Virus record (IMG/VR): IMGVR_UViG_3300036832_000975
Coordinates: 1-64,000 of that record
DNA: 64,000 nt
Direction: 5' to 3' (one strand)
From: a virus
The notes beneath the pieces were generated by a model. That model did no database searches, was not told where the DNA came from, and worked only from the letters and a program-made list of their open reading frames with translations. Shown here in pieces: positions 2,991 through 63,918 of this stretch. A program made the position numbers and the translations under genes. The stretch's first letter is position 1, and each line of letters begins with the position of its first letter.

Positions 2991-5900
2991 ATGGCTGAGC
3001 TGTACGATACTCCGTGGTTTAATACCAACTTGCCGCTGTCCGAGCCGGGTGCGTCGGCGTTACCGACGCGGCAGTTGCCGGCCGAGGTTCCGGCGACTGG
3101 CACTGGTGACTGGTTCACCTCTGGTGTCATGGCTGGTTTTCATGGAGCGCTCTCGGAGGGTGCCCGAGCGCTCCAGGCTGGTGCTCAGATGATGGGCTCG
3201 CCTGGTGCGGCCCAATCTCTCGCTGAGTTTGCTCAGGAGCATCATGCCCGCGAACAGTCGTACGCGCGTCCCGATCTGGAAGCCAACCCGTGGTCGCCCG
3301 CCGGGATCGGTTACCAGATCGCGCGTATGGTGCCGATGGGGGCTGCAGCTATTGGTGGGACCGCAATCGGGGCAGCGACAGCACCTGAAGCTGCAGCTGG
3401 GGCTGGTGCTGCGGCTATAGCTGCAGCGGCAAGGACAGCCTTTACTCGTCGTCTGGCGGGCGCTGCAGGGGCGATGTACCTCCCCGCCGCTGGAGCGAAC
3501 GTTCAACGGCAGATCACTGAGACTGGCGAGCTTACCACTCCAGGCAAGGCGCTGGGACTTGGAGTGCCGGAAGCGATTGTGCAAGGAATATTGCCGGGAC
3601 GACTGGAGAAGTTTTTCGGGGAAGGAATTTTGCGGGGGATCGCTCATTCTGCAGCGGCGCAAGGTGTTGCTGGTGGCGTGACCGAAGGATTGACCCAGTT
3701 GCTGGGTGACCCGAATCGTGGGTTCGCCGATCGAGCGGCTGCTATCGGACAATCGACCTTGAGTGGCGCAGCACTTGGTGGGATCGTCGGCGGAGCGTTC
3801 GGTGGTCTTCATGCGCTTGTCGGTAAACCAGCGCAGAGCATCAAGACTGAAGACCTTAGTAAGTCGGTTGATCAGGCGCTCGAACCGCCGGCACAGGGGC
3901 AGCTCCCATTAACTGGCGGTGGAGTGCGTCAGGGGCAGCCGCAAGGTGAGCTGCCATTACAGGCACCTCGCCAACCGCCTGAACGTCAGTTGGGCCTATT
4001 CGGTATGCCTGGGACGCAGACCGATCTATTTCGACCTGAAGAACCTGCGCCGCGGGTGGCAGAGGCGGCACCTGCTGCTGAGCCTCCTGCCGCACCTGCA
4101 CCCCCCGCTGCTGAACCTCCGCCATACGTAATAGATTTCACCAAGGGCAGGGTCAAGGAGGTTACGGCGGAGTATGAAAAAGCGACGCCAGAACAACAAG
4201 AAGAAATGGTACAGCCGTTGATCGATCAGATTATCGAACGTGGCGGTAAACCAACAAAGCCACAGGAGAAATGGATCAAGGCGCTTGGGCTCGATATTTT
4301 GGACAAGGATACAGGTTACCTCAAGGACGAATTGATCCCGGAGCGGCCGCTTGAAGAGCCGCCAGAGCTTACAGCTGAGCCTGCTGCGTCGGTAGATCCA
4401 GGAGAACGGATCGAGTTTGCGAGCGCGGGGGCGCGGCGAGCGCCTGAGGGAACTGTCACGCAAGGAGTTACAAGACGTGCTCCTGTACCAGCTACTGCTG
4501 CGGAGCTGGCAGCTATCGAACGTAACAAGCAGCTCACGCAAGAGCTAATTAATGCACCACGAGCTGTGTCTACTGACCCCAATGCGGGTAGGGTTGGCTA
4601 TGCTTCTGCGGGGGCGGAACGTCAGCAGCCTTCTATACCTGAGGTGCCTCCTGCTGAACTAGCTCCTGCGACAGACTATACCGGCCCGCTTCATAGTCAG
4701 ATTCATCCTAAGGATGAGGCTGCCCAGGCTGCTTATCAGCTTGGGCACCAGGACGCGCGCGCCGATATTTATCGAGAGTTTCCCGGTGATCCTAAGTTCG
4801 GCTATGCCTACGAACGCGGGCGCAACGACGGCAGAGCCGCCATGAGGGCTGCTCGTGATGTTCCGATCAAGACTGTGGATGATCGTGCTGATGTTCGTGA
4901 CGTGGTTCGAAAGGATATCAACACGATCGATGATCCTGTTATACAGGGTCGTCTCAAGGAAAAGGTAGATAAAATAGATGCAATGTTGCCGGGTGCAGCG
5001 GAGCGTCCGAATTCGGATTTTGCTACGTCGCTCAACACACTGTTATCGCGCTTGCGTACGGAGACCCAGGAGGCCGCACAACCATCCCCAGACCAAATAG
5101 CGCCTCCGCCCCTGAGATCGTCGCCGCGCGCCGAGGCGGTGCCGGCACCGATGGTTGATCTTGGTGCTGCTGTGGAGGGCGCGCAGAGTGAGCTATCGAA
5201 ATTCAAAAATATGCTGGGGAGAGGTCAAGCGGATGCGCTGGCAGGGGTCGAACAGCATTCGAAATGGCTAGCGGAGGTCAATAGAGCAGGGCCGGATGAG
5301 TTACAGGCTGCTTTGGCAAAAGACCCTGAAGCCTTGGCGGCCGCCGAGACACCCGATGTAGCGGATTTGGGTGGTCTTAGACAGCTGAGTACTCCACAAA
5401 AGAAACAGCTGGCTGCGTACCTGAACGCTCAGGGTGAGGTGCTCAAGGCTTTGCGTGGACCCGAATCGCGCGCGCGAGTTGTCGCCTCGCGAGACGGGCT
5501 ACCGGTAAAGCAGCTCGACGCCGATCTGGCGGACATGCATGTGCGTGGCGTCAAGTTGACTGACGCTCTCGATCACATCACCGAACACAGCGCCGATCCG
5601 GAGGAGGCTGAGCTTGCGGCGTGGATCAAGCAAGGTGTGCCGGAAGATGTAACGACGTCTTTCAGAGATGGTGTTACCGACAAAGAAGGCGAGTACTTTC
5701 CTAAGCAGCGGCTTTCGACACTCTACAATGCAGCAGATGCAACGGTAACCACGCTTCATGAAGCAATACATGCGGCGCTGTCTCGGGTGCTCGATGGTAA
5801 TAGTGCTCCGGCACGAGCCATTCGTGGTATTTATAATCAGCTCAAAGATAAGGGGGATCACGCCGGTATAGCCAACGAACACGAGATGGTGGCTGAGGTC

Positions 5901-18346: not shown

Positions 18347-20599
18347 ATGCCGTACGAATCACCGCGAGTCTGGGGCGACCCATCGGTCATGTTCGCCGAG
18401 TCCCAGCAACTGGTGGCTCTTGCCGAGGCGTTCATCCAGCAGCTCGAAGCACAGGCCGGTCAGCTTGCAGCGCCCACGATCAATGTGAACTTTCCGGTTG
18501 TCACTACACCCCCAGTGCCGGGGAGCGTGCCGGGTCCGCCTTTGCAGCAGGTGACCTGGACCGTTCCGACTCAGCCTCCGCCGTTCAACGGGTCGGTGGA
18601 TTTATCTGGTATAACCATACCGCCCTTTACTGGTGTTGCGCCGAGTCTGTCGTTCGGCGTCGCGCCGGCGCCGTTCACAGGTACCGTGCCCGATGCGCCG
18701 GTCACCAACCTGGATTTCACCTACCCAACCGTCGCCGTCACGTTGCCAACTCCGCCACCGTTGATGACTCTCGACACGGTGAATTTCCCGACCATCACGG
18801 TCCCCCCTTTCAATGCGAACGTGCCAGCGCTCATCGCCGTGGCGCCCGGACCGTTCAACTACACACCTGGTGCACTCTATACCTCGCAACTTCTGACTGA
18901 TCTCGAAGAAGACCTCGACCTGGCGATTACCACCGGGGAGTACACCTACCTCAACAAGCAGGCCCAGCAGGCACTGTGGGATGCCGGCCGCGAGCGTGAA
19001 TACAGGCAACAAGCCGCGGCGCTGGCTGAGCTGAACAGGATGGAGGTCCTGGGTTACGCGTTTCCTCCAGGGGTGTTCGTCGACGCCAGGATCAAGATAC
19101 AGACTGAGACAAATTATACGTTGGCTGGCTTGTCTCGCGACATCATGACGAAGCAGGCCGAGCTGCAGCTCACCAACATCGTCAAGGCCAGGGAGAACGC
19201 GACTGCCCTAGAAGGACAGCTGATCCAGTACGCCAACCAGAACGCGCAGCGTGCGTTCGAGGCGGCCAAGTATGCGACCGAGGCCGCCATCGCGCTCTAC
19301 AATGCGCAGGTGCAGGCGTACACGGCGTCGCTGGAGGCGTACAAGACTCAGGCGTTGGTTTACGACACCCAGATCAAGGGGCTCCTGGCGCAGATTCAGA
19401 TAACTCAGGCGCAGATCGAGTACGAGAAGACCAAGGCCAGCATCAACACTTCGCTGGTCCAGCAATACGCGACCGAGGTCCAGGCTGCCGAGGCTGTTCT
19501 GCAGATTTACAAGACTCAGGTCGAGATCATCCAGACTCAGGCCAGCGTCGAGAAGATCAAGGTCGACATCTACGGCGCCGAAATCCAGGCGTTCGTCGGT
19601 AAGATCAACGCCTACACGGCCGAGGTCGAAGGCTACAAGGCGAGCATCGAGGCGCAGGCGACGATCGAGCAGGCGTATAAAACTTCAGTGGATGCATATA
19701 CTGCCGAGGTCAACGCGGGCGTGGCGCAGATCAATGCGCGGGTCGCCGTATTTCATAGTCAAGTGGAAGCTTTCCAGGCGCAGCTCTCGGGGTATGACTC
19801 TGCCATCAAAGGAATGATCGGTCAGGCTCAGGCCGCGTCCTTGTTCAACACCGCGACGGCCGAAGTGTTCAAGGCTCAGGTCGCTGCGATGCAGAGCTAC
19901 AACCAGGTGCTGACTTCCCAGTGGGAAGCAATAATGAACGAGCAGGCGCAGATCACCCAAATTGCAGTATCTGCTGCCAAGGCCAACGGAGACCTTTACA
20001 TCTCCGCACGTGGTCTGAGTCTCGATGCTTCCAAGGTGGGGGCCCAGGTTTGCGCCCAGCTGGGCGCCGCAGCTCTTGGCGCGATCAGCTGGCACAACTC
20101 ATCGCAGTGGTCGTCGAACATGCAGTCGAGTGATAGCGATAACAAGAACGATAATGTCAGCGTCAATACCAACACCAGCACCAGCCAAAGCACTAGCGCT
20201 AGCACGAGCAATAACGTCAACCAAAGTAATAATACTAGTTTTAGTAGTAGCGTTAGTACTGCTAACAGCAATACAAATAGCAATAGCAACGTAAACAGTA
20301 ACTCTAATACGAATAGCAATAGCAATAGCAATAGCAATGTTAACAGTAACACGAATGCCAACAGCAACATAAATAGTAACACGAACGCCAACACCAATAG
20401 CAGCAGCAACATTAATAGCAACACGAATGCCAACACTAATAGCAATACGAACGCCAACACCAATAGTAACAGTAACATTAATAGTAACACGAACAGTAAC
20501 AGTAATATCAACAGCAACACGAACGCCAACAGCAACGTCAATAGTGAGATTAACTCAACGTCTAATAACGAAAACCACAACTTCAATACGGCTGAGTAG
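18347..20599 (+). CDS. Long coiled-coil virion protein with Asn-rich low-complexity tail
   Basis: A 750-residue protein in three parts: residues 1-185, Pro/Val/Thr-rich; about 190-585, a very long helical region with heptad-like repeats of the type YxAEVxAYKAxIEAQ; and about 600-745, an extreme low-complexity tail made of NSN, NTN, NAN and NVN triplets encoded by alternating AAY and AGY/ACS codons. A GGAGG ribosome binding site precedes the ATG. The helical middle fits a tail-length or fibre-shaft protein. The Asn-rich tail has no recognised function; it could aggregate, act as a flexible tether or vary in length by slippage. Confidence 0.6.
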   Translation: MPYESPRVWGDPSVMFAESQQLVALAEAFIQQLEAQAGQLAAPTINVNFPVVTTPPVPGSVPGPPLQQVTWTVPTQPPPFNGSVDLSGITIPPFTGVAPSLSFGVAPAPFTGTVPDAPVTNLDFTYPTVAVTLPTPPPLMTLDTVNFPTITVPPFNANVPALIAVAPGPFNYTPGALYTSQLLTDLEEDLDLAITTGEYTYLNKQAQQALWDAGREREYRQQAAALAELNRMEVLGYAFPPGVFVDARIKIQTETNYTLAGLSRDIMTKQAELQLTNIVKARENATALEGQLIQYANQNAQRAFEAAKYATEAAIALYNAQVQAYTASLEAYKTQALVYDTQIKGLLAQIQITQAQIEYEKTKASINTSLVQQYATEVQAAEAVLQIYKTQVEIIQTQASVEKIKVDIYGAEIQAFVGKINAYTAEVEGYKASIEAQATIEQAYKTSVDAYTAEVNAGVAQINARVAVFHSQVEAFQAQLSGYDSAIKGMIGQAQAASLFNTATAEVFKAQVAAMQSYNQVLTSQWEAIMNEQAQITQIAVSAAKANGDLYISARGLSLDASKVGAQVCAQLGAAALGAISWHNSSQWSSNMQSSDSDNKNDNVSVNTNTSTSQSTSASTSNNVNQSNNTSFSSSVSTANSNTNSNSNVNSNSNTNSNSNSNSNVNSNTNANSNINSNTNANTNSSSNINSNTNANTNSNTNANTNSNSNINSNTNSNSNINSNTNANSNVNSEINSTSNNENHNFNTAE
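20146..20590 (+). repeat. Asn-codon low-complexity repeat array
   Basis: About 445 bases of imperfect 6-, 12- and 18-base repeats built from AAY-AGY and AAC-ACG units encode the Asn-rich tail of the protein above. Units such as AATAGTAACACGAACGCC recur several times. Such arrays are prone to replication slippage, so length variation between isolates is expected. Confidence 0.8.
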
Positions 20600-27968: not shown

Positions 27969-28001
27969 TTGTATCTCCGTTGTTAGTAAACCTAGGTCTT
28001 G

Positions 28002-28094
28002 GTTAGTCCCAGTCCAAAGACCGGTTAGTTCAAATACTGCTATATCATAAGCATAACCCGCCTCCTCTCTCGTGTCAAAGCTCCACCTCTTTTT
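28002..28094 (-). pseudogene. AP2-domain-like remnant after the helicase gene
   Basis: Between the helicase stop (28111) and the next true start (27968) one frame reads KKRWSFDTREEAGYAYDIAV followed by FELTGLWTGTN. This matches the C-terminal part of AP2 DNA-binding domains of phage HNH endonucleases (pattern 'G.FdT.EEAA.AYD.AA...hG..A.lN'). No HNH part precedes it because the helicase end occupies that DNA. I read it as debris of a homing endonuclease gene; it is also in frame with the next gene, so a rare extended product is possible. Confidence 0.45.
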
Positions 28095-28110
28095 CTGACT
28101 GGTAGTAGCT

Positions 28111-30429
28111 TCATGACGCGATGACTCGTTCATACAAACGAAGGATGCTATCTTGATTTAACGCACGATTATCTAATAGGTTGTAAATTTCTCGCTCAAA
28201 GTCATTCGCAAATAAGCGGACCACCGTCATTTTCCTCGTCTGTCCCGCGCGATTGAATCGTTCGATTACTTGCGCGTATTGGTCGTGACTGTAGATAGGT
28301 GCGAAGAAGATCGTGGTGTCGGCCTCCGTCAGGTTTAGTCCATGGGCCATGACCCTGGGGTGGCACAGCAATACCCGCGGGTCAGGGCCCGATTTGAAGT
28401 TACGAATGATCCGATTGCGGTCCCTGATACTGACATCGCCGTTGAGAACTGCAAGGCTAAATTTATGCGCCGCCAATTCGGTTTCCAACAACCGGGTGAT
28501 TCCCTTGAACGGAACGACTACGATCACCTTGGCTGTGGCTTGATTGATCGTAGCGATCAGCTCATTGAGCCTGGTTGAATGGTCGATGGTTTCGTACGTG
28601 TCATCCTCTTTATTTTTTACTGACCCGCAATTATGTACAATCATCAGTTCGCCATACTGGCCACGAACAACGAAGCGAGATCGTGGGCCACAATTCAGGA
28701 TGTCCATAACTCGTGCGGACGTTTGTTCGCTGCCTGCTCTTTTGCGGTCGCCCAGCAACAGTTCGCTTTGCAATATGGACCATTGTTGTTGATCCGTTCG
28801 ATTGACAATCCCGGAGCATACCCACTCGACATGTCCTCCCAGAAGTTCTCGAATGACCACATCCATCTGATGCAGACCTCGATCCCACGCGCGCCGTAGT
28901 TTTTGTAATCCTTGAAGGTAGGATCGGTGCATCGACGACGTAAGTGTATCCAAATGCGGTAAGGTCGTGAGCGACTCATTGCATGGGTTGTTATCCATTC
29001 GCCATGCCGGCACCCACAGTGCTTGGCATTCGGTCGTTTGGTTGTTCGTAAGCTCTGGCTTTCGCGTGTGACCTTGCGGCCACAATCGCAGCGGCACAAC
29101 CATATCGCTTTCTGCGATGATCCTATCGTCGTACCAGCACGCTTCAGAACGGTGAGGTAGCCGAACCGGAGCCCGGTTAAATCGATCGCCGGATATGACA
29201 CAAAGCACCTCGTGCTCACTTGTTAAGTAAACCCCATTAGAGAGTGTTACATTCTGTAACCCTTTATCAAGTACTCCTTCATGAGCTACCCACTCCACGC
29301 CGTCCCAAAGCTGATCAGTCAGTGCGACGTGTTGGATGGGAATCCAACCACGCTGCGTGAGGACTGGTGTATCGATTGCAATGCAGCAAATCTGTCTGAG
29401 CTTGTTGAGCGCATCGGCGGCATTAACAGCAGTAATCTTTACCGTCTTGTGCTGCAGGATCATGTACTCGCGCATGAGCCTGAATGCTTTTTGTTGATCT
29501 GTCGTGAGTTGAGTCTGGCGGTTGCTGACGGTTAATGGTGGTAAGCTTATGCAGTCCTTCTTGCAAATGCGAAACGCAGGCTGTAACGCATTGAACACGA
29601 TCTGTTCGTGCCCGTTTACGGGGTTCCATTTATGCTGGCTCACCTGTCGCATCGTCATGCGGCGGAACGCACCGAAGAACTTCGGCACCCGATCCGGGCA
29701 GACCAGTCGCGCGAGCGCCCAGGCATCGGTTGGCCAGTTGGGACATGGAGTCCCCGTCAATAACCATACCCGTTTCTTGTTCTCGATGGCCCATGCGAAG
29801 AACCTGTAGGAGATGTTCCGACTGTTGCGAAAGAAGCTTGCCTCATCAAGGATAATAAGATCGATATCTTTTCGCCGGCGTACCGCCGTCGCGACTTCTT
29901 TATGAGCGATCATGTCGTGGTTGGCGATGTAGAAATCTACGTCCATGTTGAACGCATTGAGTCGGTACTCACGCGTGCCGTGGGTGACCACAGATGAACG
30001 ATGCATCAGAATATCGAAAATATCTTGCTGCCAGATGGTTTCGAGAATGGACAGCGGCGCGAGGATCAACACCTTATGCACTTCGCCGATCGACTTGAGA
30101 TAGTCGGCCGCCCACAGCGCTGAGAAGCTCTTGCCGACGCCCATCTCGGAAAGGTTGAGCCCCTTGGGATTGCGAGTATGAAAATCCGCCATCGGTCTTT
30201 GATGTGTGAAGGGCGTGTATTTGCCCGGCCAGTCGTATTGATAGAGGATCGGCGATGGTACGTTGATCCCCAGCTCGTTGAGCCTGAGCGTGGTCTCGAA
30301 CGTGTGCTTGATCTGGACGTTGCCTTCGTTGGCGTCGATCATCCGACTGAGACGGGGAAAGAACGTAAGGATACGCGATGGATTGCGTAGCTTTAGCAGG
30401 ATGCTTTTGGTTGGTTCGTGGATCATCAT
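28111..30429 (-). CDS. SNF2-like DNA helicase interrupted by an intein
   Basis: A 772-residue precursor. Helicase motifs: MGVGKS (Walker A, 96-101), LDEAS (194-198), LLTGTP (223-228), GLNLTEADTTIFF (697-709) and RFNRAGQTR (724-732), as in SNF2/DEAD-like helicases of phages. Residues 349-600 form an intein that splits the conserved block KLRQIC/CGSV; splicing would give a 520-residue helicase with KLRQICCGSV restored. It probably acts in replication or recombination, since VRR-NUC, Cas4-like and polymerase genes lie upstream in the same operon. The start (ATGATG) has only a weak binding site. The C-terminus overlaps a degenerate AP2-like fragment. Confidence 0.85.
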   Translation of the reverse strand: MMIHEPTKSILLKLRNPSRILTFFPRLSRMIDANEGNVQIKHTFETTLRLNELGINVPSPILYQYDWPGKYTPFTHQRPMADFHTRNPKGLNLSEMGVGKSFSALWAADYLKSIGEVHKVLILAPLSILETIWQQDIFDILMHRSSVVTHGTREYRLNAFNMDVDFYIANHDMIAHKEVATAVRRRKDIDLIILDEASFFRNSRNISYRFFAWAIENKKRVWLLTGTPCPNWPTDAWALARLVCPDRVPKFFGAFRRMTMRQVSQHKWNPVNGHEQIVFNALQPAFRICKKDCISLPPLTVSNRQTQLTTDQQKAFRLMREYMILQHKTVKITAVNAADALNKLRQICCIAIDTPVLTQRGWIPIQHVALTDQLWDGVEWVAHEGVLDKGLQNVTLSNGVYLTSEHEVLCVISGDRFNRAPVRLPHRSEACWYDDRIIAESDMVVPLRLWPQGHTRKPELTNNQTTECQALWVPAWRMDNNPCNESLTTLPHLDTLTSSMHRSYLQGLQKLRRAWDRGLHQMDVVIRELLGGHVEWVCSGIVNRTDQQQWSILQSELLLGDRKRAGSEQTSARVMDILNCGPRSRFVVRGQYGELMIVHNCGSVKNKEDDTYETIDHSTRLNELIATINQATAKVIVVVPFKGITRLLETELAAHKFSLAVLNGDVSIRDRNRIIRNFKSGPDPRVLLCHPRVMAHGLNLTEADTTIFFAPIYSHDQYAQVIERFNRAGQTRKMTVVRLFANDFEREIYNLLDNRALNQDSILRLYERVIAS
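28695..29201 (-). CDS. HNH homing-endonuclease-like protein nested out of frame in the intein
   Basis: About 168 residues. It has the typical phage layout: LTGLRFGYLTVLKRAG at the N-terminus, a zinc-binding part (CRCDCG ... HCGC), RPYRIWIHLRRRCTDP, YKNYGARGIEVC, a W..F..F..DM block, then GLSIERINNNGPY and NCCWATAKEQAANKR, the 'RIDNdG.Y...NCRWAt..eQ.rNkR' core of this HNH family. The frame is open from 29222. I prefer GTG at 29201, preceded by GAGG with 6-base spacing; GTG at 29219 is the longest option. The frame is shifted relative to the intein, which stays open throughout. Normally this family is free-standing or in introns. It could drive homing of the intein; expression is not proven. 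Confidence 0.7.
   Translation of the reverse strand: MSYPAIDLTGLRFGYLTVLKRAGTTIGSSQKAIWLCRCDCGRKVTRESQSLRTTKRPNAKHCGCRHGEWITTHAMSRSRPYRIWIHLRRRCTDPTFKDYKNYGARGIEVCIRWMWSFENFWEDMSSGYAPGLSIERINNNGPYCKANCCWATAKEQAANKRPHELWTS
29243..29263. repeat. Degenerate palindrome copy inside intein block B
   Basis: AGTGTTACATTCTGTAACCC matches 17 of 21 positions of the dispersed palindrome and encodes LQNVTL of the intein. It may be a chance result of coding constraints or a retained binding site at the position where the two reading frames begin to overlap. Confidence 0.4.
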
Positions 30430-30457
30430 ACTCAGTTACTTTCTATTTGTTAGTATA

Positions 30458-30856
30458 CTAGTTTATACCTCGGGGGGTTTGCCACTTTATGAGCTCACTA
30501 AACCCATAAAGCTTGCGAATATTACGCCCGGTGTGATTTGGTGGCCATGCCTGTTGGCATGTCAGTACTTCGCGTAATCTATCGATATTGGTTTCATCCA
30601 CCAGAAAGGCGTAGTGCCCTGCTTCGTGAATCATTGTAAGAAACACGAGTTGCAGTGCAGTTGGCGCATCGTCGTATTTGGTCTCTATTGCCATAAACTG
30701 CTTGGGCCACTTCACAGCAAGGAAATCGCTCACACCGCTCCGGCCAAATGCACCTGCGCTCGGCATCCAGAATTTCCACCCGGTATCGGTGAGAATTCCA
30801 CGCACCTGTTGCTTGATGTAATGCTCAGTCTGGTTGCTGGGTTTTGGCTTTCTCAT
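30458..30856 (-). CDS. VRR-NUC domain nuclease
   Basis: A 132-residue protein with the VRR-NUC (PD-(D/E)xK type) signature: GAFGRSGVSDFLAV (D44), FMAIETKYDDAPTALQ with E58, K60 and Q69. The family cleaves branched or flapped DNA and replaces Holliday-junction or Endo VII-like functions in phages. It would process recombination or replication intermediates. It lies between a small basic ORF and the helicase; a perfect 13-bp stem-loop lies just upstream of its start. Confidence 0.85.
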   Translation of the reverse strand: MRKPKPSNQTEHYIKQQVRGILTDTGWKFWMPSAGAFGRSGVSDFLAVKWPKQFMAIETKYDDAPTALQLVFLTMIHEAGHYAFLVDETNIDRLREVLTCQQAWPPNHTGRNIRKLYGFSELIKWQTPRGIN

Positions 30857-33847: not shown

Positions 33848-35770
33848 TCATCGGTTGAACCCCCGGTTCAAACTCCCATGCGCAAACTCGAACGGTTTTA
33901 GATCGCCCCAGCTCGGACCGACCTTGCAGTCCCACGGCATCGGGATGGGTGGCTTGAACTTCCAGACGGCCTCGTACGGGAGATTGTCCAGAAGGTCCTT
34001 GATGTAATACGCGGCTTCCTCCACCTTCGGTATGGGCACGTAGAAATAGAGCCCGTCATGCAGGTCCCATGCGAAGCGCGCGCCGATCTCGACGAGATAT
34101 TCTCGCACGCATCTCAGTGCGAGATACTTCTGCTCGGCTCCCGTCCCCTGGATGCGGTAGTTGATCGCCGTGCCCTCCATCTGCCAACCCAGATCACCTC
34201 CCCACTGACCGGTAATACGAACACGTCGTCCTGGAATGGTCTCTACGTATCCCTTGGTTTGCGCCGAGTGTATCTGGTTGTTCCAGTAATTTCGAATCCT
34301 CGGGTAAGTCGCCAAGTAAACTCGCTGGATACGCTGCGCCTCTTCGAGCGAGAGCGAGATGCCGTAGTCGACCTCGGCGATTTGCTGAAGTTTTTTATAA
34401 CCAACGCGGTACTGCGAGCTGAGGTTCACCACCTTGCCGCACTGACGTGCGTTGGCCTCTCGTGAGCCACTGACCTTGGCGTTCTCCCTAATTTGCTTGT
34501 AGGTGAGTGTCCGGTCGATCCGCGAGCCCATGTAGGCATGTGGGTCCTGGCCCGGCTCACACAGCTTGAGCATGGTCGTGTCACCTGACGCGATCGCCAT
34601 CCAGCGATACTCCTGACCGGCGGCATCGAATTCCATCAGCGTGAACCCTGGTGGGGGCACGATGATCCTACGGAAGAGCGGATCACGTTTTTCCTGATGT
34701 AAGGCGAATCCAATCTGGCGCTCGCCCTTGTTCTTGCCTTGCTTGGAACTATAGGTCATGCGTCCGGTATACGTGCCGAACACCTTCATCTGTGGATGCG
34801 AACGGCGATCGCCGTTGTAGGCACAGGACTTGAGAGGGGCCTGTGCGAACTTGGTATCGTTGTTGAGTGCCTCCCTGTACGTCTTGATTCGTTTTATGCG
34901 CGGGTCTCGATCTCGTAACGCCAGCTTGTGTAACACTGCCTTGCTAGTCGAGCGTGCGCCGGCAGGAGTAAACTCCAGAACAGGAAGTCCCCACTGGTCA
35001 TAGAGAACCTTGCCCAATTGTTTTGGCGACCGCACTATTTTTTCGGTGATTCCGTGCGGCGCCAAGCTGGCGAGCATGGCGTTGGCCGCCAGCTTGAGAC
35101 CCGCTGAAAGATTGCCAGCTTCCAGCGTGTCCACGATCAACCCCTCCAGGTTGGCGCGCGCGATCATCTTGAACGAAGCTGCCTCGGTCATTGCTACGGT
35201 CTGTTGAGAATGAGTCAATTTTTCCCAGAATTTCCCGGCCAGCCGCAGGGTGAAGAAGCAGTCCTTGATATTGTACTCATGGAGTCGCTTGAGCTGCTCG
35301 GAGTCCGTCCCATGATAATCAACATCGGCTTCATACCTAGCGTACTTCGGGAAGAACAGCGGCACTGCGGCCTTGAGACTGTAGCTGCGCTGCTGCTTGT
35401 GGTCGTACTCCGGCTCGATATCTAAATGGCGCCACAGCAGCATCGCATCCAGGAATCTCACCTGTTCTATGAGCTTGAGAACCTCGTCATCCTTTTCGCC
35501 ATAGGCATAGAGCCACGCGATGTCGAACACGACGTTCCACCCCACCAGGATGCAGCTCTCGTCGACAGCCCACTGCAGCATCCGGCGGATCATCGTAGTC
35601 CTCTCCGAGGAAGAGGATAATAACCCGCCCTCGTGCATGGTCTCGCCATCCTGACGCCAAACCCAGGCGAGCGACGTGAGCCAAGCTTTATCCTGGCGAA
35701 CTCGCCAGGGCTGGAGCGCCATCTCAATAGGATCGCCGCTAGTTTCCACGTCAAACGCCGCGATCTTCAT
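33848..35770 (-). CDS. Family A DNA polymerase with 3'-5' exonuclease domain
   Basis: A 640-residue protein; true start ATG 35770 (AGGAAAG upstream), since the longer frame is antisense-like Ser/Arg-rich sequence overlapping the next gene. Exonuclease motifs: FDVETSG (D7, E9), VFDIAWL (D83) and YNIKD (Y166, D170). Polymerase motifs: A FDAAGQEYRW (D382), B REANARQCGKVVNLSSQY (K446, Y454), NYRIQGTGAEQ (537-547) and C LHDGLYF (H571, D572). Motif C has Gly where many PolA enzymes have Glu. It is the replicative polymerase of the phage. It lacks the 5'-nuclease domain of bacterial PolI. Confidence 0.93.
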   Translation of the reverse strand: MKIAAFDVETSGDPIEMALQPWRVRQDKAWLTSLAWVWRQDGETMHEGGLLSSSSERTTMIRRMLQWAVDESCILVGWNVVFDIAWLYAYGEKDDEVLKLIEQVRFLDAMLLWRHLDIEPEYDHKQQRSYSLKAAVPLFFPKYARYEADVDYHGTDSEQLKRLHEYNIKDCFFTLRLAGKFWEKLTHSQQTVAMTEAASFKMIARANLEGLIVDTLEAGNLSAGLKLAANAMLASLAPHGITEKIVRSPKQLGKVLYDQWGLPVLEFTPAGARSTSKAVLHKLALRDRDPRIKRIKTYREALNNDTKFAQAPLKSCAYNGDRRSHPQMKVFGTYTGRMTYSSKQGKNKGERQIGFALHQEKRDPLFRRIIVPPPGFTLMEFDAAGQEYRWMAIASGDTTMLKLCEPGQDPHAYMGSRIDRTLTYKQIRENAKVSGSREANARQCGKVVNLSSQYRVGYKKLQQIAEVDYGISLSLEEAQRIQRVYLATYPRIRNYWNNQIHSAQTKGYVETIPGRRVRITGQWGGDLGWQMEGTAINYRIQGTGAEQKYLALRCVREYLVEIGARFAWDLHDGLYFYVPIPKVEEAAYYIKDLLDNLPYEAVWKFKPPIPMPWDCKVGPSWGDLKPFEFAHGSLNRGFNR

Positions 35771-35780
35771 CTTGCTTTCC

Positions 35781-36494
35781 TCAACCCAAGAACGGCACGG
35801 ACTTGCGCTCGATACACTCGCACTCCTGGTAAATCGCCTGCCGTATCTCTTGCAGTACCTTATCGAGGGAGTGCCAAGCATTCGGTCGCTTGTTGACCAG
35901 CTCACGCCACTTGCGCTCACGCAGCAGACTGACGACCATGGCGTTGTCCATATACTCATACACAAACGGCGCCGGAGCCATCTGCACATAGACTTTGAAC
36001 CAATCTCGAAACTCGTTGTAACCGGTTTCGAGGCGCGCTTGCTTGGCGCGCTCGCGGTTGACGACACGGACGGACCACGACCTGATCTGATCGGGCTTCC
36101 AGGTATCATCACGCTTACGAAACGTGATCGTGTCACTTACTTTGTAGGTACGCCCATCAACCGTGAGAGCGAAATTGCTGCCGCACATTTGCACGTGCAT
36201 ACCTAAGGGCGTGCAGTGATTGGCGAACACGACCGTCGATCGCGATTTGTACGGACACAAGGTAAACGAATTGTCCTCGTGCCAGGTGATTACAGAAAAA
36301 CCATACAGCCGAAGAATGATGTCTCTCGTTGCTTCTGACCTCTCGACTGTCATGTGCTTCTTGCGTTTGTCCACCAGCCCGCGCGGCATCAGTGGAGAGC
36401 CGAGCTCATGAAAGATCACACCTTTTTCCCAGGCTTCGACAGCCTGAGCATAGGACTGGATACGGTCGAAGTTGCAGCGAATCTGGAAAGCCAT
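35781..36494 (-). CDS. Conserved-looking protein upstream of the polymerase, unknown function
   Basis: A 237-residue protein with AAAGGAGTAACTTACC before its ATG, one of several early genes with this leader. Mixed alpha/beta sequence with FHELGSPLMPRGLVDKRKKH and HCTPLGMHVQMCGSNFALTV; no motif I can name. Its stop lies 10 bases before the polymerase start. Adjacent position suggests a replication role. Confidence 0.7.
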   Translation of the reverse strand: MAFQIRCNFDRIQSYAQAVEAWEKGVIFHELGSPLMPRGLVDKRKKHMTVERSEATRDIILRLYGFSVITWHEDNSFTLCPYKSRSTVVFANHCTPLGMHVQMCGSNFALTVDGRTYKVSDTITFRKRDDTWKPDQIRSWSVRVVNRERAKQARLETGYNEFRDWFKVYVQMAPAPFVYEYMDNAMVVSLLRERKWRELVNKRPNAWHSLDKVLQEIRQAIYQECECIERKSVPFLG

Positions 36495-49168: not shown

Positions 49169-49471
49169 ATGAGCCCTGGCATCCTCGACAGCGCGGGACA
49201 GGTCGCCACCAGCGCCATAGAAGCCATGAAGGCTGCGCCGGTGCTCATAGCCCTGGTACTCCTTCAAGGGCTCACCCTCGGCGTCGTTGGCTACAACGTC
49301 AACATGCGACAGCGCGACATGGCGGAGGAGCGCAGGCTCTTCGCGGACGAGCGAAAGATGTTCCTTGAATTGTGTGTTGTCCAGCGAACAGGGTCGGGTC
49401 CGACGAATTTCCGCCTGGAGAGTGAGTCGAGTAAACCAGTGCCATTGCCGCCTGAGCGGCCGAAGGAGTGA
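49169..49471 (+). CDS. Single-span membrane protein with cytoplasmic/periplasmic helix
   Basis: A 100-residue protein with one hydrophobic segment ([20 protein letters not shown], about residues 24-43) followed by a charged helix ([20 protein letters not shown]). Topology resembles a small holin accessory or an i-spanin-like protein, though a spanin partner is not evident. It lies right after the small terminase candidate. Confidence 0.55.
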
Positions 49472-49475
49472 TGCA

Positions 49476-51449
49476 ATGCTGACCGAGGCAGGCCAGCCTG
49501 AGCCCGACGAACCCAAGCCCGAAAGCAAAGCAGTGGGCAGTCCCATCCAGTACAAGGTGGTCGACCACCCATGGAATCCCGGCAATCCCACCATTGCCGA
49601 GGCGATGCTGGGCACCGTGGGGCAGGATGGCTGGCAGCTGGTCTCCGTCTATCCGGACCCGATGCGCGAGAGAACCCGCTGGATTTTTTCGAACGTCACC
49701 GCCAGTGGCGTCGGCGGTGGCGGTATCCCCGAAGCGCCAGTAGACGGAAACCTCTATGGACGACAGGACTCGAATTGGTCCCCTGTCCCTGCCGGGACAG
49801 GAGGAACACCAGGACCCACCGGCCCTGCGGGCCCTGCCGGACCCACCGGCCCTCCCGGCCCACCCGGAGTGGGTGGAAATAGTGGTCCCGTGGGGCCAGA
49901 AGGCCCCCAAGGTAGTCCAGGGCAAGATGGACCTCCGGGGCCCACGGGACCCGCAGGACCCGCAGGCACACCCGGTGTGCCCGGTCTACCTGGTGAAGTG
50001 GGCGCGACCGGCCCAGCCGGCCCACAAGGACCCGCCGGACTCACCGGCCCACAAGGACTTACGGGAGCAGATGGACCACCCGGTCCAGTCGGGCCACAAG
50101 GAACACCCGGTGCGCAGGGAGCTACCGGCCCTGCCGGCCCTACCGGCCCCACGGGTGAATCAGGACCAGCAGGCGCGGATGGCGCGGCTGGCGCGCAGGG
50201 CCCACAAGGTCCGATAGGCGTCGACGGTGCGCAAGGTCTGGTGGGCCCGCAGGGCTCGTCGGGCCCGCAGGGCTCGCCGGGCACTTCGACCAGCCTGTGG
50301 CCGTGGGGGTACAGTGAGTCCGCAACGCCGCCACCGGCCAACGGGTTCATCAATACCGATGGCGCCGACGCGCCGAGCACCACCGTGATCTGGGTCGCGG
50401 CGCTCGATCAGAACGGCAACGACGAGAGGTTGCTACTACTACTGGCGAACCCGGGCGACGAGTTGTTCGTCCAGGTGGCCAACGATTCGACCTGCTATGC
50501 GATCTTCAATCTGACCGGGCCACCGGTAGACGACACGACCTACGTCACCTTCCCGGTGGCATTCGTACAGCAAGGACCCACGCTGCTCACCGGCAACAAG
50601 CCGAACGTGCTGTTCGGTGTTCGCGTCGTCGGGCAACAGGGCATGCAAGGACCTTCCGGTCCGCAGGGACCGCAAGGTCTCCCCGGAGCCCAGGGCGCGC
50701 AGGGTATACAGGGCCCCGCCGGCGTCGACGGTGCACAGGGAACCCAGGGAATCCCGGGAACCCAGGGACCAGTCGGTGATCAGGGCCCACCGGGTCCAGC
50801 CGGTCCAGCCGGCGCACAAGGTCCAGCTGGACCTCAAGGTCCACAGGGGCCGCAAGGTATTCTAGGGAGCCCTGGAGCCCAGGGCGCGACCGGTCCACAA
50901 GGAGCACAAGGAGCACAAGGAGCACAAGGTCAGCAAGGTATTCCGGGCCCGGTCGCCGTTTCGGCGAATGCCGGCAACCTCGCCAGGTTGGGCACCGATA
51001 ACCTGCTACTGGTGCCCGACACCTCGAAGCTCAAGGGCATCACTGACGGCTCGAACGCCGCGGCGGGCGTCATAGGCGAAGTGCTGAGCGCGTCGATCAC
51101 CACGGCCGTCAACCTCACGCTCAACACGCCGGTCAATATCGGCCAGATCACCCTCACCCCTGGCGACTGGGCGGTAGCGGGAAACGTGAACTTCGTGAGC
51201 CCTGGCACCGCCGGAACCCGCTATGCGATCGCGATCTCCAACACCAGCGCGACGCTGCCTACGGCAGCGCAGCTCGCAGTAGGTACCGGAACTCTCACCG
51301 ACATGTCGTTGACTTTCGGCAAGGCAGCGCAGAACTTCAACACTTCTCTCTGTCGGTTCAATGTCAGCGCGAGCACGACGGTGTACCTGGTTGCCCTTGG
51401 ACCAGCCACGACTGCCACTGGTTACCTGAGCGCGAGGCGCATGCGATGA
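49476..51449 (+). CDS. Collagen-like tail fibre
   Basis: A 657-residue protein from ATG 49476 (AAGGAG upstream). Residues about 1-105 are a globular N-terminal domain ([20 protein letters not shown]). Two long runs of Gly-X-Y triplets follow ([19 protein letters not shown] and so on), separated by a beta domain of about 115 residues ([20 protein letters not shown]). The C-terminal 150 residues form another globular beta domain. Collagen-like repeats make trimeric fibre stalks in phages; the terminal domains probably bind receptor or attach to the virion. Confidence 0.8.
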
Positions 51450-60819: not shown

Positions 60820-63800
60820 ATGACTGCGTCGATCAAACACACATTCGCCAGCTCTCATGGTGAAGACCCGGACCCAACATTGGTTGCCGCTAATGCATGG
60901 AATACCGACCATACGATCACCCTGAGCGCACCGGGATTGCTCGGCCGCACGCCGGAGGGCACCACGACGGATGTGATTGTGGTCGGGACTGGTTTGTCGC
61001 TGGCTGGAAACGTGCTTACGAATACCGTGGCTGTCGGCCCTACCGGGCCCGCAGGTCCTGCGGGCCCAGCTAGTACGGTTCCTGGTCCGACTGGTCCTAT
61101 AGGTCCCACGGGCCCGACTGGCCCTACGGGCCCGACTGGTCCGGCCAGTACGGTTCCTGGTCCTACGGGTCCCGCAGGCAGCGTCATACAAAGTGGTTCA
61201 GTCACGGCTGGACATATTGCAACCTGGGTTGGAACAAACGTCATTCAGGATGGTGGTCCGGTTCCCAGTGGTGGCGGTACTGGATTGTCGAATGTGTTCG
61301 CCACCATCGCATCATTGCATGGCGCCACGGTTTCGACTGGCGTTCCAGCTGTGTTTACGCAAGGTCGTATCAGCCCTGGCGACGGCGGTGATGCGACGTA
61401 CCTATTGGCCCCGGTTCAATCTGCGGCGCCCAACCGGGAGCAATCGGCGGACGGGCAGTACTGGGAGTACAAGCCGGGCCCTGCCGGCATATGCCCGAAT
61501 GCCTTCGGTGCAGTTGGGGACGGTGTTGCGCTGAACGATACGCCATGGAATAATTTTCTCGCATCATTGAAGCTGTACGGCCGCACTCAGCCACTGGCGA
61601 CGGTTACAATAGCGCCGTTGAGTGGCGCCGGAACGGCTGCCGTGATCTCATGGCCGGCACACGGACGACGCCTCAACGACGCCATATTCTTCTCCACGAC
61701 GGGGACACTCCCGACTGGGCTTACTCCAGGCGTTGCATATTACGTCATTACGCCGGGCTTTCTGGCTGATAGTTTTCGCGTGGCGACTTCGAATAACTAT
61801 GACCAGGCGCATGGTGAGGGGGCGGCTGTAACCATAACCGGAACCGGAACCGGAACTCATTCGGCGGCGGTCGGCGGAGAACGGCCGATGCAAATATACA
61901 TTTCTCCCGGTCATTATCTGTTCTCCAACAGTAATCCGAGCCTATCTGGGGGCAATCAGAAGAGTTGCATCGTATCGGCCTATGGCGCATCCATGATTCA
62001 TGTAAGCGCTGGGCAAGGCTTGATAGGACAAGATCAGACTTTCAATTTTAATTCATGGTCATATATTCAATCTGCATTCCAAGGGCAGAGTTTCGTAGTC
62101 GTGGATGTTGTTGCGCATGCGTCGAGGTTTTTTGTTGGACAATGGATTTTTGTTGGCGGGCTTGATCTGCAAAACGCATTTGGAAGTCAGAACTGGCCAC
62201 CAAACTGTCAATATAACCAACATCTAAAAATAACCGCCATAAATACATCTACTGGCCGCATCGACCTGAACGGTCAATTGTGGAGTGATTTGTTCTCTAC
62301 TTGGCCTAAAATGAATGATGGCACTGCTGTAGGAGTTCCTATCGGCTCCGGCGCTGCTTTCATCATCGGGATGGGAACGACTTGGGACAATGAGACGGAG
62401 GTGCGTGGGCTCACCATCACGGGCCCAGGTCCAGATATCGGTCTAGCCAGGGAGCTAAGACTGACGGATGTGCATCATAATGGCGCGCAATCCTTCAATT
62501 GTGGATCATCAAAACGGTGGATCAATACACGATGTCGGTTTGGTAATCGCAATCCCGCAGCTCTGCAGGGGATGGAAATCGATAAATTAATGGAGTATGT
62601 CGAATTTAATGAATGCACAGCCGATGCTATAAATTTTGTCGCCCCTGGCGGATACATGGCTGTGATAGATCGATGTGATATCCTTACTTTATCTAGCACG
62701 GCCAGGAATATGAAAGTGTCAAATTCGATTATTCAGGAGTTTGATTATGGGCAATTTTTTGGCGCCAATGAAAGTCTAATTCTTGAAAACAACAAGATAA
62801 GTAAGTTCGTGCGCACTACCCGTCTTGACGATCCGCTGGCGAGTAGCGCTGTAGCAAACATGGTTGAAAATTGGACGTTCTCCGGCGGCACGCTCAAGCA
62901 ACCGATTGCCACGACGAATGCAAATTGGTGGGCTGTCCCTGGTCGGAAAATGTTCGTCAATGATATGGCAGGCATCTATGACAATATGGGCTCGCCATTC
63001 ACGGTCAGAAATGTCTTCGTGGATGGATCGGGCAATTTCAGTATCGAGACCGATCTGGCGGCATTGCCTGTTGGCAATAGCACAAAGAATACTGCTGTGT
63101 CATTCACGGGAAGCAATGTCAACTGGACGGCACATGGCCTGCCGGCCAATACGCCGGTTGCCTTCTTGCCGGGAACTGGGACGTTGCCGTCCCCGCTATC
63201 GCCAGGGCAGGTTGTCTTTGTCCTTGCTGCGCCCCCGACCAATACATTTCAGGTCGCAACGACAGTTGGCGGCGTAGCGCTTACGTTCTCTGGGGGCACG
63301 GGCCCGAATACGGGCGTCTCCAATCCATTGCATTTCCAGCCCCATCCTTGCGTCAAGCTGACGGCTAGGGCGAACAGGGGCGATCCTCACTTGATGGACC
63401 TGAACGGCGCGGACAACGAGCCTATTTTTGGTCGTTCTCATCGTTCATTCGGCGGTTACACGACGGACAGCGTCAGTTTTTATACTGACCCTGTCATGTG
63501 GGGGCTGGTCAATCAAATCATCATCAATATTACACGACCAAGCAGCTTTGCTGGCGACAAGGTAGCGATATCCGGTACAGGTTTTAATAATCTGACGCCA
63601 ACGGCTTATTCAGAAACAATTGATCTCACCGTTGGTCCTCGTGTAATCACAATCACGCCGTCGGGGTTTACTATCGTCCCATCAAGCTCAACAGGCCCCA
63701 ACGACATTCTGGCCGCTCTTAATCTATGGTTAGGGGGCCAAACCAACATTCGTCCAGCCACGGCCAATGGTGGAGCTATAAATCAGAACGCTGTCTTTAC

Positions 63801-63918
63801 GGTTACAATGACGACTGATCAAGGTATCACTCGCAATGACTTGACTTCGTGGCACGGACCGAATGACTCGCATATCGGTTTGTGGGCAGATACGACGGTA
63901 ATTGGGAACCTGAACTGA
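60820..63918 (+). CDS. Tailspike with collagen-like segment and pectate-lyase-like beta-helix
   Basis: A 1032-residue protein after GGCGGAGAT. Residues about 65-125 are collagen-like (GPTGPTGPTGPTGPAST). CPNAFGAVGDGVALNDTPWN (about 225-245) is the classic 'fGAkGDG.tDdT' opening of pectate-lyase-type beta-helix spikes. Residues about 285-330 and 755-800 contain a repeated 'WPAHGRRLND / WTAHGLPANTPV ... LPSPLSPG' module. Spike proteins of this type often degrade host polysaccharides; catalytic residues cannot be assigned. The central DNA is AT-richer than both ends. Confidence 0.75.
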   Translation: MTASIKHTFASSHGEDPDPTLVAANAWNTDHTITLSAPGLLGRTPEGTTTDVIVVGTGLSLAGNVLTNTVAVGPTGPAGPAGPASTVPGPTGPIGPTGPTGPTGPTGPASTVPGPTGPAGSVIQSGSVTAGHIATWVGTNVIQDGGPVPSGGGTGLSNVFATIASLHGATVSTGVPAVFTQGRISPGDGGDATYLLAPVQSAAPNREQSADGQYWEYKPGPAGICPNAFGAVGDGVALNDTPWNNFLASLKLYGRTQPLATVTIAPLSGAGTAAVISWPAHGRRLNDAIFFSTTGTLPTGLTPGVAYYVITPGFLADSFRVATSNNYDQAHGEGAAVTITGTGTGTHSAAVGGERPMQIYISPGHYLFSNSNPSLSGGNQKSCIVSAYGASMIHVSAGQGLIGQDQTFNFNSWSYIQSAFQGQSFVVVDVVAHASRFFVGQWIFVGGLDLQNAFGSQNWPPNCQYNQHLKITAINTSTGRIDLNGQLWSDLFSTWPKMNDGTAVGVPIGSGAAFIIGMGTTWDNETEVRGLTITGPGPDIGLARELRLTDVHHNGAQSFNCGSSKRWINTRCRFGNRNPAALQGMEIDKLMEYVEFNECTADAINFVAPGGYMAVIDRCDILTLSSTARNMKVSNSIIQEFDYGQFFGANESLILENNKISKFVRTTRLDDPLASSAVANMVENWTFSGGTLKQPIATTNANWWAVPGRKMFVNDMAGIYDNMGSPFTVRNVFVDGSGNFSIETDLAALPVGNSTKNTAVSFTGSNVNWTAHGLPANTPVAFLPGTGTLPSPLSPGQVVFVLAAPPTNTFQVATTVGGVALTFSGGTGPNTGVSNPLHFQPHPCVKLTARANRGDPHLMDLNGADNEPIFGRSHRSFGGYTTDSVSFYTDPVMWGLVNQIIINITRPSSFAGDKVAISGTGFNNLTPTAYSETIDLTVGPRVITITPSGFTIVPSSSTGPNDILAALNLWLGGQTNIRPATANGGAINQNAVFTVTMTTDQGITRNDLTSWHGPNDSHIGLWADTTVIGNLN

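Follow-up and report, generated by a model that had tools for sequence, protein, structure and literature searches.

An HNH-type endonuclease gene lying out of frame within a phage helicase intein and its relatives

In the DNA analysed here, a window comprising 64,000 of the 65,064 bases of IMG/VR virus record IMGVR_UViG_3300036832_000975, an intein within a phage helicase gene contains an HNH-type endonuclease gene that is read in another frame of that strand. We regard it as probable, though short of certain, that this is a self-contained mobile intein whose homing endonuclease is encoded out of frame. The architecture, its recurrence, the avoidance of stop codons in two frames and a shift of selection at the borders of the HNH gene were observed, while splicing, separate translation and cleavage are inferred. 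In the proposed mechanism, the helicase mRNA would be read in the helicase frame to give a precursor protein, whose two HINT halves (intein residues 1-60 and 221-252) would, judging from the splicing blocks and the fold, close round a disordered loop, splice out and restore the helicase. An internal SD/GTG site beside block B would allow translation in the +1 frame of a separate HNH-type endonuclease, as suggested by the conserved start and SD and by selection. This protein would then cut intein-less helicase alleles, and repair would copy the intein in; this last step has not been shown.

The helicase gene and its intein

The host gene (28111-30429, minus strand) encodes without interruption a phage SNF2-type DNA helicase precursor of 772 aa, including the intein, and is matched by Pfam (SNF2-rel_dom, 4.8e-19; Helicase_C, 1.8e-12) and PHROG (phrog_62 DNA helicase, 3.2e-83). 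The N-extein is encoded by positions 29386-30429 and the C-extein, with the stop codon, by 28111-28629 (both minus strand). Once joined, the exteins align as one continuous stretch to intein-less phage helicases (36.5% over 99% for that of Pseudomonas phage Rollin). The helicases of phages Rollin, RHph_TM3_14A and Xp15 provide intein-less alleles of the insertion site, with the empty-site motif KLLQ(L/V/I)(S/A) followed by x-G. The insertion point, KLLQxx/G (here and below a slash marks the junction), falls within a conserved motif of the helicase, and the empty alleles have this motif unbroken. Elsewhere in the window, a small ORF upstream of the helicase (30458-30856, minus strand) looks by eye like a VRR-NUC nuclease, and large virion-like ORFs are found on the plus strand at 18347-20599, 49287-51449 and 60820-63918, an Asn/Ser-repeat tail and collagen-like GPx repeats among them.

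The intein itself (28630-29385, minus strand; 252 aa, helicase residues C349 to N600) is located between LRQIC and CGS of the helicase. The first-pass annotation, made from the sequence alone, had assigned four splicing blocks (A, B, F and G) to the helicase frame and had seen no LAGLIDADG or HNH motif in the centre of that frame, and both observations were borne out. Block A reads CIAIDTPVLT, block B TSEH (T55, H58), block F VMDILN and block G IVHN/C; the catalytic residues C1, T55, H58, H251-N252 and C+1 are all present, and the first three are invariant across an alignment of 56 inteins. A Pfam search of the helicase-frame protein returned no in-frame LAGLIDADG or HNH domain. In the AlphaFold model (three rows from annotated phage records were left out of the alignments for structure models), residues 1-60 and 221-252 form a confidently predicted HINT fold (pLDDT about 90 or more), between which most of the dual-coded part is disordered. 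The N-terminal splicing half, with blocks A and B (29206-29385, minus strand), is coded in the helicase frame only and reaches pLDDT 90-98; the C-terminal half, with blocks F and G and the terminal HN/C (28630-28725, minus strand), reaches 87-95 and carries the conserved VxDIxNCGPRxRFVV...IVHN. Alignment of the model to solved inteins with VIA-align gave Z 12.7 for gp41-1 (rmsd 2.1 over 101 residues) and Z 12.5 for the Ssp DnaB intein (100 or more residues). We assign 28630-29385 as an intein on the basis of its blocks, its predicted HINT fold and the empty alleles, from which splicing activity is inferred.

Two readings that deny protein splicing by the insert were weighed against these data. 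The insert could be a dead, non-splicing domain like that of phage ShiLan, with only the HNH gene being of consequence; an out-of-frame HNH insertion without splicing domains has been published (PMC11855218), and the window intein lacks the GWxxA stretch that follows block B in relatives. However, the complete set of catalytic residues, the confident HINT fold, the position in a helicase motif that is unbroken in empty alleles and the codon-level purifying selection in the N- and C-terminal blocks (see below) make this improbable. An HNH ORF housed in a group I intron would also be a familiar arrangement, because introns often hold such ORFs in another frame. It can be set aside almost completely, since no intron family was matched by Rfam in 28000-30500 and the insert is open in the helicase frame, with intein blocks and an intein fold.

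The nested HNH-type reading frame and its start

The proposal that an HNH-like gene in another frame occupies the place where an in-frame endonuclease normally lies holds up. The ORF (28695-29219, minus strand) is situated wholly between blocks B and F and is +1 relative to the helicase. Its product has 174 aa if translation begins at GTG 29219 and 168 aa if it begins at GTG 29201, with the stop codon at 28697-28695. In a comparison of start sites the N-terminal extension from GTG 29219 (29202-29219) had no good SD, and this codon is the less likely start; the nested, dual-coding gene is given here as 28695-29201. The product matches PHROG family 374 ('HNH endonuclease') with 9.5e-55 over residues 10-168 and is 35-60% identical to 52 out-of-frame HNH ORFs of other inteins. 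The protein had been described as complete and HNH-type endonuclease-like, but it is shorter than most of its relatives, which have about 45 additional C-terminal residues with a helix-turn-helix that are missing here. As the window copy also has an intein without GWxxA, either activity could be weakened in it.

The HNH label rests on the PHROG family annotation, and cleavage of DNA is inferred from sequence similarity. No HNH match was found by Pfam in the protein, Foldseek returned no significant match to the HNH model, and a PDB sequence search with the HNH alignment gave nothing useful. The model has a predicted beta-beta-alpha element at residues 133-158, and its best structural neighbour is the HNH enzyme PacI, but the match is weak (Z 6.1, 79 residues) and perhaps reflects only a common arrangement. 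By eye, the motif is (L/I)(D/E)R...N...N, compared with DH...N...H in canonical HNH enzymes, with LDR/IER in place of the canonical DH pair.

A putative ribosome-binding site, GAGGTG (29206-29211, minus strand), lies four bases before GTG 29201 and is formed by codons E59-V60, directly after H58 of block B. Several relatives share CACGAGGT at the HNH start, and the starts are found at consistent offsets, about 184-226 nt into the intein. An SD match of 4 nt or more precedes 69% of 64 HNH starts, compared with 19% of 10,877 control codons, which were ATG/GTG triplets from the surrounding sequence (p about 1e-17). In the +2 HNH ORFs (L006-L008 and L010-L012), the first ATG overlaps the LWDGVEWV motif of the intein, and no clear SD was seen at their first start codons. 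Because the HNH ORF, its SD and its stop are all contained in 28630-29385, the element carries a complete gene. The conserved internal SD and start sites lend support to the earlier suggestion that production of the endonuclease need not depend on splicing, but this suggestion remains unproven. Programmed frameshifting, by which the HNH protein would be made as a fusion to the N-terminal half of an otherwise identical intein, seems unlikely: the two frames do overlap, consistently at +1 or +2, but start codons with an SD occur shortly before the HNH core, and their offsets are consistent.

Coding in two frames and its recurrence in relatives

The opening of both frames is not a matter of chance, since a fortuitous second ORF was ruled out by synonymous recoding. 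When the HNH protein of the window was recoded synonymously, 7.5 stops appeared on average in the intein frame, and when the intein was recoded, 6.7 appeared in the HNH frame; neither treatment gave a stop-free sequence in 1000 trials. Across relatives, both frames were stop-free in all 91 loci for which 8.8 (intein frame) and 5.4 (HNH frame) stops per locus were expected by the same procedure. Some of these loci are near copies, so 91 is not the number of independent events, but each locus shows the deficit of stops. On the HNH side, this test covers only the open segment with the HNH core, and loci with a broken HNH gene (L089) enter it shortened.

Codon-level selection was examined in both frames, as the first-pass annotation had advised, and constraint was found to follow the HNH gene inside the overlap and the intein outside it. 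In the overlap of the +1 inteins, substitutions at intein codon positions 1, 2 and 3 numbered 1319, 566 and 522; intein position 1 is there HNH position 3, the one that changes freely. The corresponding counts were 193, 142 and 479 in the N-terminal splicing block and 9, 5 and 41 in the C-terminal one, with the excess at intein position 3 in both. A +2 pair (L006/L007) gave 32, 96 and 54, with the excess again at HNH third positions. A few of the pooled pairs nearly duplicate others, but the pattern also holds pair by pair in those listed, and the same phase shift was seen between the window and 10 relatives. Purifying selection thus switches frame at the HNH borders.

The two frames are not equally constrained within the overlap. 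In distant pairs the amino-acid identity of the intein frame inside the overlap was 0.240, where a mere shadow of the HNH gene would give 0.220 (z 0.8), and amino-acid similarity was only slightly in excess; equal selection on both frames is therefore rejected. Taken together with the substitution phase, this near-shadow identity indicates that the HNH gene carries the sequence constraint and that the intein frame is chiefly kept free of stops. Dual coding is therefore asymmetric: in the overlap the intein frame for the most part merely shadows the HNH gene, tolerated and free of stops, and the weak constraint agrees with the disordered middle of the AlphaFold model. The initial description of about 500 dual-coding bases stands in so far as both frames are open beyond chance expectation, but not in the sense of two frames under similar constraint.

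Other phages have this arrangement as well. The top database matches of the HNH protein fall within the DNA polymerase genes of APSE and Caulobacter phages, where the intein-frame protein also aligns from end to end. The same out-of-frame layout was found in APSE-1/-4, Caulobacter GB2A, Shewanella SFCi1, Vibrio 97.13, Pseudomonas MR14 and EBPR siphovirus 2, and four IMG/VR contigs likewise show an out-of-frame HNH gene within an intein. Relatives were collected from a profile scan of virus contigs (the best 80 of 393) and from 84,980 prokaryote genomes, which yielded 24. In total, 126 inteins from phages, virus contigs and prophages were delimited, 102 of them distinct in their splicing blocks. 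The HNH gene is at +1 in 108 and at +2 in 13, is absent from five and is in frame in none; an out-of-frame HNH gene is the usual arrangement in this intein family. A bifunctional intein with an in-frame endonuclease was accordingly rejected for the window, where the HNH gene is at +1. As all relatives were gathered by similarity to the window intein, the set is uninformative about prevalence among inteins at large.

Recurrence also bears on the possibility that two compensating frameshift errors in sequencing or assembly displaced an in-frame HNH domain, which had been named at the outset as an observation that would overturn the reading. In-frame endonuclease domains are the textbook layout. 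However, about 120 other inteins, from independent contigs, isolate genomes and prophages, have the same out-of-frame layout, none has the domain in frame, and the phase of substitutions differs by region as a genuine overlap predicts, so that we consider this explanation refuted.

In six single loci (L051, L061, L089, L092, L093 and L105), PolA was seen to contain a pair of inteins of this family. Each member of the pair has, or once had, an out-of-frame HNH gene of its own, and sometimes one is at +1 and the other at +2.

Mobility, precedents and meaning

Inteins of the family are inserted at several conserved motifs in two unrelated genes, those of the SNF2 helicase and PolA. The phage's own PolA-like DNA polymerase (33848-36136, minus strand) has no intein of this family. 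Divergence of the splicing blocks and of the HNH gene is correlated (rho 0.55), whereas that of the exteins is only weakly tied to either (rho 0.16 with the splicing blocks, 0.29 with the HNH gene). In pairs such as L009/L073, the exteins are only 25% identical but the splicing blocks 77%.

Relatives with a broken HNH gene and an intact intein had been named as potentially refuting evidence, and such cases do exist: L089 (3001-3918) and L100 (3001-3918; Arsenophonus endosymbiont) have stops in the HNH frame and an open intein frame. They are, however, rare exceptions that fit ordinary decay of an endonuclease. An HNH remnant is also present in the second intein of L105. In Streptococcus phage Javan422 (L014, 3230-3406), a 168-aa mini-intein retains only the N-terminal part of a +1 HNH ORF, and this remnant illustrates a way in which the family's mini-inteins may originate; others (L013, L107, L112 and L113) have no HNH gene. 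Such decay and loss are what one would ordinarily expect in the life cycle of a homing element, although homing itself is inferred.

A reading that keeps the intein but separates it from the endonuclease deserves more weight than the others, though it remains unlikely. A free-standing HNH gene, a selfish element in its own right, may have settled in a mini-intein at its permissive loop; it would then home itself, cutting inteins or other DNA, and would not be the intein's own homing enzyme. Free-standing members of the same HNH family are widespread in phages (940 records), the occurrence of at least two frame types (+1 and +2) suggests more than one entry, and mini-inteins without the HNH gene exist. 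Against this, the splicing blocks and the HNH gene co-vary across loci, the HNH gene is at the canonical B-F site every time, and, like homing inteins, those that bear the HNH gene are spread over several conserved sites of two unrelated genes. We therefore continue to prefer a mobile intein with its own endonuclease.

Textbook inteins are single proteins with two activities. The classical bifunctional inteins, of the PI-SceI type with LAGLIDADG or with an in-frame HNH domain, share with the window intein the HINT splicing domain and an endonuclease between blocks B and F, but theirs is read in frame and belongs to the intein protein, whereas here it would be a separate protein from another frame. 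In the fractured genes reportedly described by Dassa et al. in 2009, which have split inteins, the endonuclease is likewise encoded apart from the intein protein, by a gene of its own between the host-gene pieces. They differ in that the host gene is split, whereas the window has one uninterrupted gene overlapping the endonuclease.

The closest published case is the insertion in phage ShiLan (Arsenault et al., 2025), an out-of-frame HNH insertion that is explicitly not an intein and for which its authors reported no intein or intron splicing elements and no detectable ribosome-binding site (PMC11855218). Both systems have an HNH gene in another frame of an insertion open in the host frame, occur in phage genes, have a proposed homing function and use a GTG start. 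The family described here differs in its full splicing blocks, HINT fold, SD-type starts and location in helicase and PolA genes; an insertion of the ShiLan type is marked by the absence of splicing domains and was rejected for the window on these grounds.

APSE-1 P45/P46 (NC_000935) is likewise a PolA intein with a +1 HNH ORF, whose product is about 43% identical to that of the window, but in another host gene and at another site. The GenBank record already annotates P46 as 'HNH endonuclease' inside P45 (NC_000935), and a 2005 paper lists APSE-1 among intein-bearing phages (PMC549080); we found no paper naming P46 an out-of-frame intein endonuclease. The annotated start of P46 (L002, 3229-3651) is about 230 nt downstream of the conserved GTG at 3001, and P46 is probably annotated too short.

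On this evidence, the out-of-frame endonuclease intein looks new and widespread, although a prior description in bioRxiv 10.1101/2025.01.02.630785, on actinobacteriophage inteins of 'non-canonical architecture', is not excluded. We lean, with some reserve, towards the wider view that these elements form a broad class of inteins, found in phages and prophages, that has not been described before. Its homing endonuclease would normally be encoded out of frame (+1 or +2, in SNF2 helicases and PolA), with production of the enzyme decoupled from splicing within one uninterrupted gene. One stretch of DNA would then encode both a splicing protein and, in another frame, a second protein that cuts DNA, and would do so in dozens of distinct phage genes. 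The arrangement suggests a route by which a homing gene can invade an intein and leave the host gene working. With selection visibly switching frame at the gene borders, the family offers a clean natural system for the evolution of overlapping genes. Out-of-frame coding also explains why annotation pipelines miss such endonucleases, and the mobility of many apparently endonuclease-free inteins becomes testable.
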